Shown here piece after piece: positions 1,252 to 48,415 of a stretch of DNA of 64,000 nucleotides. The notes below the pieces were generated by a model. It was not told the DNA's origin and did not search any database. It was given only the letters and a program-made list of their open reading frames with translations. Each line of letters opens with the position of its first letter. The stretch's first letter is position 1. The DNA comes from Methylotenera sp. GTDB lineage: Bacteria > Pseudomonadota > Gammaproteobacteria > Burkholderiales > Methylophilaceae. Location: NCBI GenBank assembly GCA_030682715.1, contig JAUXNQ010000018.1:1-64000 (forward strand), written 5' to 3'. A program made the translations under genes and the position numbers.

Positions 1252-2406
1252 TTATAGATTTTTATTACTACGCAGTATATCCAAATAACGTTTACACCAA
1301 TCAGTAGCATTAGGATAACGCGCAAAACTCTGATGTGAGTGCAAAGACTTAGCAGTGTACTGACTTACATTTTGTATAAGTCCTAACATTCTGATAGCGC
1401 ATTCTTTAGCATTATCTTCTTCGTAATAAATGCCAGACTCTCCGACCACTGAGTGTGCATATTGTAATGATGGCACAATCACTGGCAAGCCATAACTCAT
1501 CGCCTCAATTAAAGGATTGCCAAACGTTTCTGATTTAGATGGGAACAAAAAAAAATGCGAAGTTTTGTAAAACTCAACTAAATCTATTTGCTTGATTTCC
1601 CCAAGATTGAGTATTGGCAAACCCTTAGACGCCACATCATTTAAAAACACATCTGCACCTGAAATTTCGGGGTCTACTGTAACTAAAATTTGGTGTTTTA
1701 TATTTGCATTTGTTAACTCAGATGAAAGTGCTAAAAGAAACGCATGGTTCTTATGTGGATAAAAACGACTGACATACAAAATGGTGAGCTTATCATCTAA
1801 AGACAACGCCCTTTGAGTGATAAGTCCGTTAATTTCCAATACTGACTGCGTAATAAAATCTTTACTAATCGGGTTGGGGATAACCGTCAACTCACTTTTA
1901 TAATTAGTCCATACTTTTTTAACTTCCTCTAAAACATATGGGCTTTGAACAACAAGAACATCTACATTTTTTAATGTTACCCAAAATGTAAATCTTTTGA
2001 TTTTTTCAATTAGCTTACTAAAGAGTGGTAGTTTTTGAAGTAATGCATTATCAAAAAGATATGGGTGATGCAACAAAACTACCTTCTTGACGTTTACTGG
2101 AGAAAGTAAAAAGTTACCAAAAGCCAACATAGCGGTTATTTGATACTTTTTTACTAATTTAGGTATTAGAATGACATCGAGATATATTCGGACAACTATT
2201 TTTCTAAGAACTGAGTTCACTTTCTGTAACTTAATAACGTGAACATTACTAGTTGAGCATAACGCTGTGTACTCTTGAATATCGGGAACAATAATATAAA
2301 AGCTGCAAGAGTCACTAGACTGACTCATTAACTCTGAAATTAGATTTAAAGAAATATTCTTAGGGCCTGCCGCAGTTTGATTGTAAAGGTTGATTAAGCA
2401 GTTCAT
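1252..2406 (-). CDS. Family 4 (GT-B) glycosyltransferase
   Basis: 384 residues with a GT-B layout. The N-terminal domain contains QTAAGPKNI, a glycine-containing acceptor-side loop. The C-terminal Rossmann domain carries LYVSRFYPHKNHAFLL and the EX7E region in FPSKSETFGNPLIEAMSYGLPVI, the donor-binding signature of GT4 retaining transferases. The start ATG at 2406 has a purine-rich AGAGAAAA just upstream. It sits between the flippase gene (192 bases upstream) and the GT2 gene (13 bases downstream) and should extend the same polysaccharide unit on the cytoplasmic face. Donor and acceptor are unknown. Confidence 0.85.
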   Translation of the reverse strand: MNCLINLYNQTAAGPKNISLNLISELMSQSSDSCSFYIIVPDIQEYTALCSTSNVHVIKLQKVNSVLRKIVVRIYLDVILIPKLVKKYQITAMLAFGNFLLSPVNVKKVVLLHHPYLFDNALLQKLPLFSKLIEKIKRFTFWVTLKNVDVLVVQSPYVLEEVKKVWTNYKSELTVIPNPISKDFITQSVLEINGLITQRALSLDDKLTILYVSRFYPHKNHAFLLALSSELTNANIKHQILVTVDPEISGADVFLNDVASKGLPILNLGEIKQIDLVEFYKTSHFFLFPSKSETFGNPLIEAMSYGLPVIVPSLQYAHSVVGESGIYYEEDNAKECAIRMLGLIQNVSQYTAKSLHSHQSFARYPNATDWCKRYLDILRSNKNL

Positions 2407-45459: not shown

Positions 45460-46650
45460 TTAGCTTGTTAATAGCGCCAAATCGGCTTTCAAATCCTCAA
45501 TATGCTCTAGGCCCACTGCAATACGCACCAAACCATCACTAATCCCTGCCGCCGTCCTTGCCTCAGGCGTCACTCGGCTGTGCGTGGTGGTTGCTGGATG
45601 CGTAATTGTACTTTTTGCATCACCTAAATTTGCAGTAATTGAAATCAATTGCGTAGAGTCAATGAGAGCCCATGCTGACTCTTGCGCAGTTTTACCTGAT
45701 GTTGGTTTCACCTCAAAAGTTACAATTCCGCCGCCACTAAGTTGCTGACTCATGGCTAGCGTATGCTGTGGGTGGGACTTCAAACCAGGATAATGTACAC
45801 GACTAACTTGCGGCTGTGCTTCGAGCCACGTTGCTAACGCTAAGGCACTCTTGGCATGTGCTTCCATACGCACGTGCAATGTTTCTAACCCTTTTAAAAA
45901 CACCCATGCATTAAAAGCACTCATGGTCACACCTGCTGTGCGTAGAAATCCATAAACTGGCTCCATCAGCGCCTTAGATCCTAATACTGCACCACCTAAA
46001 CATCTACCCTGCCCATCAATATATTTTGTTGCAGAGTGAATCACAATATCAGCCCCTAATGCTAATGGGCGCTGTATCGCTGGCGTACAAAAACAATTAT
46101 CAACCACTAAATGCGCACCAGCTTGATGTGCAATGTCGGCTAACAGTCGGATATCGCACACCTCAGTTAATGGATTTGACGGAGTTTCTACAAAAAATAG
46201 TTTAGTTTTTGCTGTTGCGGCATCCTTCCACTCATCAGGCTCAGTGAGCGAAACAAAAGTGACATCCAAACCCCAACGTTTAAGTATATTGCCAAACAAC
46301 TGCACGCTAGTACCAAATATACTACGCGAAGCAACGACATGATCACCAGCCGAACATAAACCCATAACACACGCTAAGATTGCAGACATACCACTAGAGG
46401 TGGCAACGCATTGTTCCGCACCCTCCAATGCAGCCAGTTTGTTTTGGAACATCGTGACGGTTGGGTTAGTAAAGCGCGAATAAATATTGCCAGGTTCCGT
46501 GCCACCAAATCGAGCAGCGGCTTGTGCCGCACTTTTAAATCTGAAGCTAGAGTTTAAGAACAAAGCTTCAGAGTTTTCTCCATATTCAGTCGATTCGCTA
46601 CCAGCACGTACACTCAGTGTTTCTGGGTGAAATTGTAAATTATTATTCAT
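45460..46650 (-). CDS. metZ: O-succinylhomoserine sulfhydrylase
   Basis: 396 residues. Cys/Met-metabolism PLP enzyme: YSRFTNPTVTMFQNKLAALEG, ATSSGMSAILA, VVDNCFCTPAIQRPLALGAD, and the PLP lysine in HSATKYIDGQGRCLGG. Direct sulfhydrylation of O-succinylhomoserine makes homocysteine and uses sulfide produced by the sulfate reduction cluster. The ATG at 46650 follows AGAGG by five bases; the longer frame to 46695 starts inside a terminator and is rejected. Expression is probably controlled by the SAM-II riboswitch and terminator upstream. Confidence 0.95.
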   Translation of the reverse strand: MNNNLQFHPETLSVRAGSESTEYGENSEALFLNSSFRFKSAAQAAARFGGTEPGNIYSRFTNPTVTMFQNKLAALEGAEQCVATSSGMSAILACVMGLCSAGDHVVASRSIFGTSVQLFGNILKRWGLDVTFVSLTEPDEWKDAATAKTKLFFVETPSNPLTEVCDIRLLADIAHQAGAHLVVDNCFCTPAIQRPLALGADIVIHSATKYIDGQGRCLGGAVLGSKALMEPVYGFLRTAGVTMSAFNAWVFLKGLETLHVRMEAHAKSALALATWLEAQPQVSRVHYPGLKSHPQHTLAMSQQLSGGGIVTFEVKPTSGKTAQESAWALIDSTQLISITANLGDAKSTITHPATTTHSRVTPEARTAAGISDGLVRIAVGLEHIEDLKADLALLTS

Positions 46651-46674
46651 CATTTCCTCTAAGTTCTCGGGACA

Positions 46675-46711
46675 TAAAAAAACCCGCTCAAGCATTGCGC
46701 TAAAACGGGTT
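46675..46711 (-). terminator. Intrinsic terminator of the metZ leader (riboswitch expression platform)
   Basis: On the minus strand AACCCGTTTTAGC (46711-46699) pairs with GCTTGAGCGGGTT (46693-46681) around GCAAT, with one U-U mismatch and G-U pairs, then a run of seven T (46682-46676). It starts seven bases after the SAM-II aptamer and lies about 25 bases before the metZ start. GUUUUAGC of its 5' arm (46706-46699) can instead pair with GCUAAAGC (46730-46723) in the aptamer, giving an antiterminator. Confidence 0.85.
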
Positions 46712-46717
46712 CTTTTT

Positions 46718-46797
46718 TACTCGCTTTAGCTGTATTTATAATGCGCCCGCAAGCTGAGTGTGGCCTTGATTAATGTTGGCAAACTCAAATCAGCGCA
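46718..46797 (-). promoter_or_regulatory. SAM-II (SAM-alpha) riboswitch aptamer
   Basis: The minus-strand RNA reads TGCGCTGATTTG at its 5' end and GGGCGCATTATAAATACAGC, TAAAGCGAG at its 3' end, closely matching the SAM-II consensus (GCGCUGAUUU... GCGCGUGAUAAAU-AGCUAAA). P1 pairs UGCGCU (46797-46792) with GGCGCA (46747-46742). The pseudoknot P2 pairs CUUGC (46753-46749) with GCGAG (46724-46720). An extra hairpin, closed by UGAGU (46787-46783) and ACUCA (46759-46755), is inserted between L1 and P2. Binding of S-adenosylmethionine should lock the 3' strand and favour the terminator, switching metZ off. SAM-II is best known from alphaproteobacteria upstream of metA, metZ and metX genes. Confidence 0.85.
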
Positions 46798-46802
46798 GTT
46801 TT

Positions 46803-46831
46803 ATGTTAGTCCTAAGTGTAAACACAGTCAA
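46803..46831 (-). promoter_or_regulatory. Sigma-70 promoter of metZ
   Basis: TTGACT (46831-46826) and TAACAT (46808-46803) are separated by 17 bases. Start of transcription seven bases on would fall at about 46796, exactly the first bases of the SAM-II aptamer, so the leader begins with the riboswitch. It lies after the purF stop at 46871. Confidence 0.75.
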
Positions 46832-46870
46832 GCATTTAACACGAGCAATACATATTTTGGATGACCTAAT

Positions 46871-48415
46871 CTAAGCGCCTTCTTCTACCTCAAGCCCATC
46901 TGCATTGATTAAATTCAAATCTAACTGCGTGCTTGAATTCGCTGGTTTAGCACCTTTTTGTCCATCACCACGCGCAGATTCAATTTTTGACAAATATGCT
47001 TCACTGATATCACCCGTCACATATTTACCATCAAAACATGAGCAATCAAAGTCTTTGATTTTTGGGTTGCTTTGCTTGATACCATCCACCAAAGCATCCA
47101 AGTCTTGATAGATTAGCGCGTCAGCACCAATTTCTTTGCAGATTTCCTCATCGCTACGCCCTGTTGCCAGTAGCTCGTCGCGACTTGGCATATCAATACC
47201 ATACACATTGGGGAAGCGAACTGGGGGTGCCGCTGAAGCAAAATACACTTTAGTTGCGCCTGCATCACGGGCCATTTGCACAATCTGTTGTGAGGTCGTA
47301 CCGCGCACAATAGAATCATCCACCAGTAAAACATTTTTACCTTTAAACTCAATCCCAATTGGATTTAGTTTTTGACGGACTGATTTTTTACGTAATGCTT
47401 GGCCCGGCATAATAAACGTGCGGCCAATATAACGGTTTTTAATAAAACCTTCGCGATAATCTAGTCCTAATGCCAAACCTACTTGAAGCGCACTTGGTCG
47501 GCTAGTATCAGGAATCGGAATCACGACATCAATCTTTTTATCAGCCCATTCTCGCTTGATCTTTTCAGCCAAGCTCTTACCCATATCCAAACGCGTTTGA
47601 TAAACAGACACGCCATCAATGACTGAGTCTGGACGCGCTAAATATACATACTCAAAAATACATGGATTTAACTTCGCTTCATCAGAACATTGACGCGAGT
47701 AGAAGTTACCTTCCATATCAATAAATACAGCCTCACCAGGCTCAACGTCACGCAAAACTTGAAAACCCAGCACATCTAAAGCGACACTTTCAGAGGCCAC
47801 AACGTATTCAGTGCCTTTGTCTGTTTCACTTTTACCAATCACCAATGGACGGATACCGTTAGGGTCACGGAATGCGAGCAAACCAAAATTAGCAATCATC
47901 GCCACAACCGCATAAGCACCTTTACAACGTTTGTGAACACCAGCCACTGCATCAAAAGCCATATCTGTATTTAATACAGCATTGCGTGATGTTTTTTCAA
48001 TCTCATGTGCGAGCACATTTAGCAATACTTCAGAATCTGAATTCGTATTAATATGGCGTAAATCCTGACGGAACATCTCTGATTTCAATTGCTCAGAGTT
48101 GGTCAAATTACCGTTATGTCCTAACACAATTCCAAACGGAGAGTTCACATAAAACGGCTGAGCTTCAGCGGCATTAGAAGATCCAGCTGTTGGATAGCGC
48201 ACATGTGCAATACCCGCATTACCAACAAGACTACGCATATGACGTGTTTGAAACACATCTTTCACTAGTCCGTTATTTTTATGCATAAAAAATGTATTGC
48301 CATCACAGGTCACAATGCCAGCCGCATCTTGCCCCCTGTGCTGAAGTACCAGTAATCCATCATACAACAACTGATTAACTGGATTTTTACCAACAATGCC
48401 TATAATTCCACACAT
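46871..48415 (-). CDS. purF: Amidophosphoribosyltransferase
   Basis: 514 residues. The N-terminal glutamine amidotransferase starts [10 protein letters not shown]; after Met removal Cys2 is the nucleophile. [16 protein letters not shown] and a PRTase domain with [18 protein letters not shown] follow. It makes 5-phosphoribosylamine, the first committed step of purine synthesis. It is 41 bases downstream of cvpA, as in many proteobacteria. Confidence 0.97.

Follow-up and report, generated by a model that had tools for sequence, protein, structure and literature searches.

A SAM-II riboswitch variant with an inserted hairpin probably controls metZ by transcription termination in Methylotenera

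How is metZ, the gene for O-succinylhomoserine sulfhydrylase, controlled in Methylotenera sp. (Burkholderiales; Methylophilaceae)? The question arises from the minus-strand leader that separates metZ from purF on contig JAUXNQ010000018.1 (assembly GCA_030682715.1), of which positions 1 to 64,000 were analysed and are called the window here. In the direction of transcription, this leader carries a predicted promoter, the 5' strand of helix P1, the motif GAUUUGA, a GAGU..ACUC hairpin, CAGCUUGC, the 3' strand of P1, an A/U-rich strand, GCUAAAGCGAG and a terminator. The original prediction had interpreted it as a SAM-II aptamer, consisting of P1, an H-type pseudoknot P2 and an extra hairpin, followed by an intrinsic terminator; all of these elements are present in the sequence and are supported by the comparisons described below. 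The presence of metZ downstream and of a predicted promoter adjoining P1 agrees with the features of SAM-II members. SAM denotes S-adenosylmethionine; labels beginning with L and G refer to loci and genomes, respectively.

The class of the aptamer was assessed with two models. Model R2 was built from 26 SAM-II elements lacking the insert (24 loci fetched from the order plus L142 and L144), none of which stems from Methylophilaceae. In a search of the whole genome it gives the window site 48.2 bits and E = 1.4e-9; the second-best match has an E of 0.098. This is the only clear R2 match in the genome and lies far beyond chance. Across the order, R2 has matches at E<=1e-4 in 210 of 300 genomes and in 105 of 135 genera; this count includes the genomes that supplied R2, was made without control genomes and relies on E-values that are rough owing to a short calibration. 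The Rfam model of SAM-II, RF00521, matches 141 of the 300 genomes at E<=0.01, 51 of them over its cut-off, and none of 14 control genomes. At E<=10, all 14 control genomes were matched too, so that the sub-threshold RF00521 match at the window site (see below) is weak by itself. By tblastn, 30 fetched RF00521 loci precede metZ-like genes (12), metX-like genes (11) and other or unassigned genes (7); the metZ-like group includes L050, which is just 31% identical to MetZ, and L063, whose gene begins about 670 nt further on.

At the locus itself, the original prediction had proposed an RF00521 search on the minus strand. A full-length alignment (1-79) was indeed obtained there, but its 21.8 bits do not reach the cut-off of 36 bits; the E-value is 0.017 when 801 bases are scanned and 0.012 for the whole genome. 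GAUUUGA and GCUAAAG are intact in this alignment, and CUUGC is read in the sequence and aligned to the consensus for relatives. An Rfam scan of the whole window at the gathering threshold passed no family, and RF00521 with the stricter filters of the 300-genome search gave no match in the window's genome.

The relatives connect this low score to the canonical class. Model R1, built from 22 elements of the window's genus including the window's own, recovers the element from 134 of 150 genomes of the family. The length of the turn between L1 and P2 in the extracted family members ranges from 3 to 39 nt and forms a graded series at the metZ locus: 3-6 nt (L116, L133, L124, L104, L109, L129-L131), 11-19 nt in several genera and 25-39 nt in others. 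Members with the short turn score 36.9 bits with RF00521 (L116, over the cut-off), 32.2 (L109), 31.6 (L133), 31.0 (L124) and 27.9 (L104). Judged from these comparisons, the leader is a SAM-II aptamer in variant form, and this identity is firm because the order-wide RF00521 matches, the independent R2 match and the graded series of turn lengths at the metZ locus all support it. The inserted hairpin seems to hide the element from standard annotation.

Other classes were considered for the same site. SAM-II long loops (RF01726) has no match in 46300-47100 at E<=10, nor at the locus in 40 genomes (25 of them from the window's genus) at E<=1. SAM-V (RF01826) is not listed for 46300-47100 at E<=10, and L3, where SAM-V has an additional helix, comprises 11 nt without a stem. 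Matches to Spd-sr07, snoR160, OrzO-P, istR, SNORD126, sR3 and CLRN1-AS1 in the same interval are far under their cut-offs and were taken as chance. A plus-strand match to RF02424 has the best E-value of the 801-base scan (0.0063), at 23.0 bits for a cut-off of 70; RF02424 was rejected as an identity, as this family turned out to be antisense to SAM-II elements (see below).

For the structure, each genus was represented by a single element, which gave 47 of the 115 distinct ones. The extraction script required GAUUU, UUGC, GCUAAAG and the four inner pairs of P1; L105, L113, L132 and L137 are unmatched by its patterns and absent from the counts of insert length, antiterminator, pairing and covariation. 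Independent evidence therefore comes from what the extraction left open: the outer P1 pair, the top P1 pair and the outer P2 pairs. In P1, 98.2% of cells are paired, and three of its six pairs show double changes; its outer pair is formed in 42 of 47 representatives (UA, UG, CG, AU, GC, GU) and its top pair Y:J in all 47 (CG, UG, UA). P2, which is formed by CUCAGCUUGC and GCUAAAGCGAG, is paired in 90.8% of cells. Compensatory changes among relatives, to which the original prediction had appealed for both helices, are thus found in P1, but in P2 they are limited to the two outermost pairs, the core being invariant. For the whole structure, 93.8% of cells are paired compared to 90.6% in 500 shuffles (none as high), five pairs show double changes (shuffled 3.2; 2/500 as high), further pair types number 14 (shuffled 11.5; 25/500 as high), and the covariation score is 0.138 (shuffled mean 0.082; 0/500 as high; slid controls <=0.041).

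Several of these results weigh against the assignment and have to be set beside it. The RF00521 score lies below the curated cut-off, which is an annotation threshold and not a structural feature. Members with longer inserts score lower (L103, 26.1 bits; L106, 23.9; L110, 23.2), and L112 and the window's own element, L001, are not listed for RF00521 at E<=0.5. The invariance of GAUUU, UUGC, GCUAAAG and the four inner P1 pairs is not independent, having been demanded by the extraction. The core of P2 is invariant, so that covariation is unable to support it; P2 rests on complementarity and conserved sequence. Finally, relatedness alone can outdo such shuffles without any structure.

The low Rfam score would also be expected if an aptamer descended from SAM-II now sensed another ligand, e.g. 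S-adenosylhomocysteine (SAH) or methionine, or none, and altered or decayed copies do exist in the family (L105 with GCAAAAG; L022). On the other hand, equivalents of the SAM contacts are present in GAUUU, CUUGC and GCUAAA, the mapping to the window RNA being our own; the contacts of SAM-V (U8, U9, U20, U47, A48 and A50 in SAM-V numbering) are described as very similar in SAM-II (PMC6061858). Moreover, the target gene is metZ, and the same genome contains a separate SAH riboswitch (RF01057, 46.8 bits, cut-off 37; G000:C65:53922-54002, L161). A change or loss of ligand is therefore considered very improbable.

How would the aptamer act on metZ? The terminator hairpin, which was found where it had been predicted, has a folding energy of -15.4 kcal/mol, or -18.5 kcal/mol with flanking A/U pairs. 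The complementarity of the aptamer 3' strand, GCUAAAGCG, with CGUUUUAGC in the 5' arm of the terminator was also recovered; it comprises nine pairs instead of the eight originally counted, one of them being G-U as stated, and is worth -8.7 kcal/mol as a hairpin. In a comparison of 21 family genera and 26 outside genera, with one element each (47 of 115 distinct), the 9-nt helix of GCUAAAGCG with CGUUUU(A/G)GC in the terminator 5' arm occurs in 18 of the 21 family genera; when the downstream sequence of each of these elements was shuffled 100 times, the real helix beat at least 96 of the shuffles. The exceptions are L103 (5 nt), L116 (6 nt) and L129 (6 nt). A pattern scan with GATTTGAG-N(8-38)-CTCAGCTTGCG-R-GCGC over genome contigs of 84,980 species yielded 116 stretches, 80 of which are listed; 68 of these 80 contain CGTTTTRGC downstream.

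In the most probable mechanism, SAM binding would lock GCUAAAGCG into the P2 pseudoknot; the terminator would then fold and end transcription ahead of metZ. In the absence of SAM, GCUAAAGCG would be free at the time when the 5' arm CGUUUUAGC leaves the polymerase, and the 9-pair antiterminator would allow readthrough into metZ. As P2, once formed, occupies the antiterminator strand, termination would be expected in the presence of SAM, which is in line with the metZ element of S. meliloti. For that SAM-II riboswitch, formation of a terminator on SAM binding was predicted, and high SAM led to more short terminated RNA and less metZ mRNA (PMC9373788). The choice between the two folds must fall during transcription because the terminator is the more stable one. 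In stepwise minimum-energy folding, performed in 4-nt steps, the full antiterminator is present at transcript lengths of 108-120 and the terminator from 124.

The greater stability of the terminator (-15.4 to -18.5 versus -8.7 kcal/mol) would also suit a constitutive hairpin that serves purF or acts as a promoter-proximal trap, outside the control of the aptamer. However, the predicted promoter sits between purF and the aptamer. In addition, the 5'-arm 7-mer UUUU(A/G)GC is kept in 18 of the 21 family genera, whereas the opposite-arm 7-mer has 19 forms in 21 and often pairs incompletely, with 3-7 of the seven positions paired in ungapped register. The A-to-G change in the 5' arm preserves the pairing with the aptamer strand as G-U. 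Conservation of this arm seems to exceed what the terminator itself needs. Control could also be translational; two family members with small genomes, L113 and L132, keep the SAM-II core with no terminator seen by eye. In the window, the Shine-Dalgarno-like sequence is found downstream of the terminator and is not part of P2. Both variants, a constitutive terminator and translational control, are thus rated as quite improbable.

Three observations count against regulated termination as the function of the leader. Outside the family, the 9-nt helix occurs in two of 26 genera (L043, L144), the other 24 having 3-7 nt and mostly doing no better than shuffled sequence; an antiterminator common to all beta-proteobacteria is therefore not supported. 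The conservation of the nonamer within the family is possibly due in part to descent, and the stepwise folding leaves pseudoknots out. Taking everything together, we assign a probability of roughly 0.9 to the leader being a SAM-II riboswitch that, at high SAM, shuts metZ off through transcription termination; its ligand, direction of switching and kinetics are what we infer from the comparisons.

The inserted hairpin, whose presence the original prediction had correctly noted, occupies 31 nt in the turn before P2. Where insert-free relatives have a short turn leading from the third strand to P2, at what would be the far end of the pocket, the window element has this hairpin; judged against those relatives, it would leave the SAM-contacting core untouched. 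The closing pairs GA(G/A)..(C/U)UC are kept in all 17 genera with an insert of at least 10 nt; the third closing pair is G-C in 16 genera and A-U in one (L106), which constitutes a double change. Some inserts contain long distal stems of unrelated sequence, e.g. UACCGUG/CACGGUA in L110, AUGCUGUU/AACAGCAU in L125, and that of L134. A stability test was performed with 21 of the 115 distinct elements and with the closing triplet fixed as GAG/CUC, which replaces the natural GAA/UUC of L106. Against its own shuffles, the variable part of the insert is modestly more stable, with a mean z of -1.10; z lies below -1 in 7 of the 21 elements and is -0.72 in that of the window. These z-scores do not support a strong distal stem in every insert.

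Two interpretations of the hairpin can be offered. It may be a neutral expansion whose role is limited to bridging the turn. A length of 3 to 39 nt with freely variable distal sequence, the persistence of members with a 3-6 nt turn in the same family, and folding energies that clearly beat shuffles only in a minority of cases are in agreement with this view; the preserved closing pairs, including the double change of L106, are at odds with it. We regard neutral expansion as evenly balanced between right and wrong. Alternatively, the hairpin could be a second switch within the aptamer. The closing stem UGAG/CUCA shares its CUC with the outer P2 pairs (to the 3' GAG) and also includes residues adjoining the pocket. 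The hairpin might fold first during transcription and keep P2 open until SAM captures the pseudoknot. Such a toggle is tentative and rather unlikely.

The pattern scan also indicates where such inserts occur. The 80 listed stretches bear 65 names of the Methylo- type (including Methylotenera, Methylophilus, Methylovorus, Methylobacillus and Methylopumilus), 12 broad names, one Sulfuritalea and two Herbaspirillum. The gene metZ follows in 75 of the 80, and in three others (L185, L211, L253) the available DNA ends soon after the element. By eye, the two elements labelled Herbaspirillum combine a short insert with a hairpin in L3. The GAG..CUC insert may thus have arisen more than once, unless the labels of these metagenome-assembled genomes mislead. 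In L162, L197 and L245, inspection by eye shows a SAM-II core whose L3 contains a hairpin, either in place of an insert in the L1-P2 turn or beside one. L3 would then offer another place where an insertion is tolerated, on the side that carries P3 in SAM-V.

The features of the locus are compiled in Table 1. In 19 of 21 family representatives (one per genus), a TTGAC-type -35 box is combined with a -10 box whose end is 4-7 nt upstream of P1; the promoter spacing would put the transcription start at most a few bases away from where P1 begins. The start of metZ is at 46650 or 46653. The longest open frame of metZ begins at 46695, within the terminator; homologues and AGAGGA favour the later starts. 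Automatic annotation may start metZ too early and thereby cover part of the riboswitch (46651-46695).

Table 1. Positions of the metZ gene, its neighbour and the leader elements in the window.
Feature	Position	Strand	Basis
metZ, O-succinylhomoserine sulfhydrylase	45460..46653	-	NCBIfam NF006003, 685.7 bits (cut-off 522); TIGR01325, 567.9 (cut-off 510)
AGAGGA Shine-Dalgarno-like sequence and tandem ATG start of metZ	46648..46660	-	sequence reading
Intrinsic terminator AACCCGUUUUAGCGCAAUGCUUGAGCGGGUU and U-run	46676..46711	-	folding energy
Antiterminator 3' strand = terminator 5' arm, CGUUUUAGC	46699..46707	-	9-nt helix, 18/21 family genera
P2 3' strand GCUAAAGCGAG	46720..46730	-	first 9 nt double as antiterminator 5' strand
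L3, A/U-rich strand UUAUAAAUACA, 11 nt without stem	46731..46741	-	sequence reading, RF00521 alignment
P1 3' strand GGCGCA	46742..46747	-	pairing and comparison
P2 5' strand CUCAGCUUGC	46749..46758	-	outer CUC also able to close the inserted hairpin
Inserted hairpin GAGU..ACUC, turn between L1 and P2, 31 nt	46756..46786	-	comparison with family members
L1 GAUUUGA, third strand of predicted triplex (SAM pocket)	46785..46791	-	identical in RF00521 consensus
P1 5' strand UGCGCU	46792..46797	-	pairs with 46742-46747; compensatory changes across genera
-10 box TAACAT	46803..46808	-	17-nt spacer to -35
-35 box TTGACT	46826..46831	-	sequence reading; family conservation
purF, upstream neighbour	46871..48415	-	TIGR01134, 542.5 bits (cut-off 350)

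Within the window's genus, the element is present in 31 of 37 genomes (G000-G036). Three small-genome congeners (G005, G008 and G029; assemblies 71-88% complete) leave no room for it between purF (identified by eye) and metZ; R1 has no match in them at E<=0.1. It was not found in G021, G032 has a decayed copy, and the assembly of G009 contains neither the element nor metZ; several of the assemblies lacking the element are incomplete. The MetZ proteins of G026 and G014 are 98% and 96% identical to that of the window. Second R1 matches are weak in G371 (L137, E 6e-4) and G152 (E 0.004). L137 was rejected as a SAM-II element: no core is visible by eye, and neither Rfam (E<=0.5) nor R2 (E<=1) matches it. 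Further second matches occur in G399 (two), G385 and G442; one of those in G399 (L138) is a SAM-II core with a short turn and without metZ.

Altered copies were also encountered. L113 and L132, both from genus g30, have their SAM-II core upstream of metZ with an altered P2, and possibly represent a translational platform in streamlined relatives. In L105 (G340), GCUAAAG is replaced by GCAAAAG, the spacer is longer and the terminator hairpin is near-perfect; this is possibly a decayed aptamer with the terminator left behind. At L046, a second SAM-II-like aptamer follows the first terminator (1398-1475, minus strand; RF00521 28.1 bits, cut-off 36). Similar second aptamers were seen by eye in L041, L045 and L067, which are not listed for RF00521 at E<=0.5; tandem SAM-II switches in beta-proteobacteria are thus possible. 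L052 and L066 are SAM-II elements over the Rfam cut-off before MetK-like and MetH-like frames, named by eye from their translations.

With regard to known systems, the element shares P1, the H-type P2, GAUUUG in L1, CUUGC and GCUAAAG with SAM-II (SAM_alpha, RF00521; the metA element of PMC1273637), as well as a promoter few bases before P1, a terminator between P2 and the open reading frame, and a methionine gene downstream; it differs by the 31-nt hairpin in the L1-P2 turn. The SAM-II element of S. meliloti (PMC9373788) has a target gene of the same name and a predicted SAM-triggered terminator, its host being an alpha-proteobacterium. SAM-II long loops (PMC2864571) is a SAM-II relative with longer loops, listed for Bacteroidetes and marine samples. 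SAM-V (PMC6061858) has the same pseudoknot core and SAM pocket, but an extra helix P3 after P1 on the L3 side, a turn of 3 nt where the window element has its hairpin, and translational control. The original prediction had considered SAM-II notable in a beta-proteobacterium. This does not hold: occurrences in other proteobacteria, beta included, and with terminators were described in 2005 (PMC1273637), 2007 (PMC2258182) and 2009 (PMC2704228), and the R2 matches extend over most genomes of the order. One study counts SAM-Alpha as a motif confined to three taxonomic groups or fewer (PMC3766115).

Two further names probably refer to the same type of element. The 'metXZ' RNA (PMC4239095, 2014) is located before metXW or metZ in beta-proteobacteria, has no named ligand and was kept apart from SAM_alpha. 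Its description mentions three Methylophilales with metZ, a pseudoknot indicated by two conserved pairings, a downstream terminator and one copy per genome; by description alone, it is likely to be the window element or its relatives. Bp2_Cand287 (PMC3521395, 2012) was found in purF, metZ and metX contexts, and a cis-acting element was suggested. RF02424, the Rfam family of this Burkholderia 'sRNA', lies like the window element upstream of methionine genes, in purF, metZ and metX neighbourhoods. In the order it has 29 matches in 28 of 150 genomes, one of them over the cut-off. Eighteen of the 29 lie opposite RF00521 matches (among the RF00521 matches listed), e.g. G171:C5:2544-2654 (L163), and two more have an R2 match on the opposite strand (G082:C2; L162, partial). 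The family is modelled on the opposite strand, and its best example, L162, has its hairpin by eye in L3 and not in the L1-P2 turn. The Bp2_287 'sRNA' is thus apparently the antisense strand of a SAM-II riboswitch plus terminator.

Outside subscription journals and supplements, no published description of the inserted hairpin, of the conserved antiterminator or of a link between metXZ, SAM-II and RF02424 was found; in PMC2965389 and PMC3766115, nothing on the window element was found.

These results likely settle the identity of the metXZ RNA, which was published without a ligand, and suggest that the Rfam 'sRNA' family RF02424 was modelled on the opposite strand of a riboswitch. They also bear on annotation: the Rfam cut-off for SAM-II passes 51 of 300 genomes of the order, compared to 210 matched by a model trained on 26 of the order's own elements (E<=1e-4). 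The insert series within one family constitutes a natural experiment, in which a small pseudoknot aptamer gains a hairpin and retains its pocket. If the hairpin were indeed a toggle, termination would depend more strictly on SAM, and Methylophilaceae would have built this toggle by growing a single turn.
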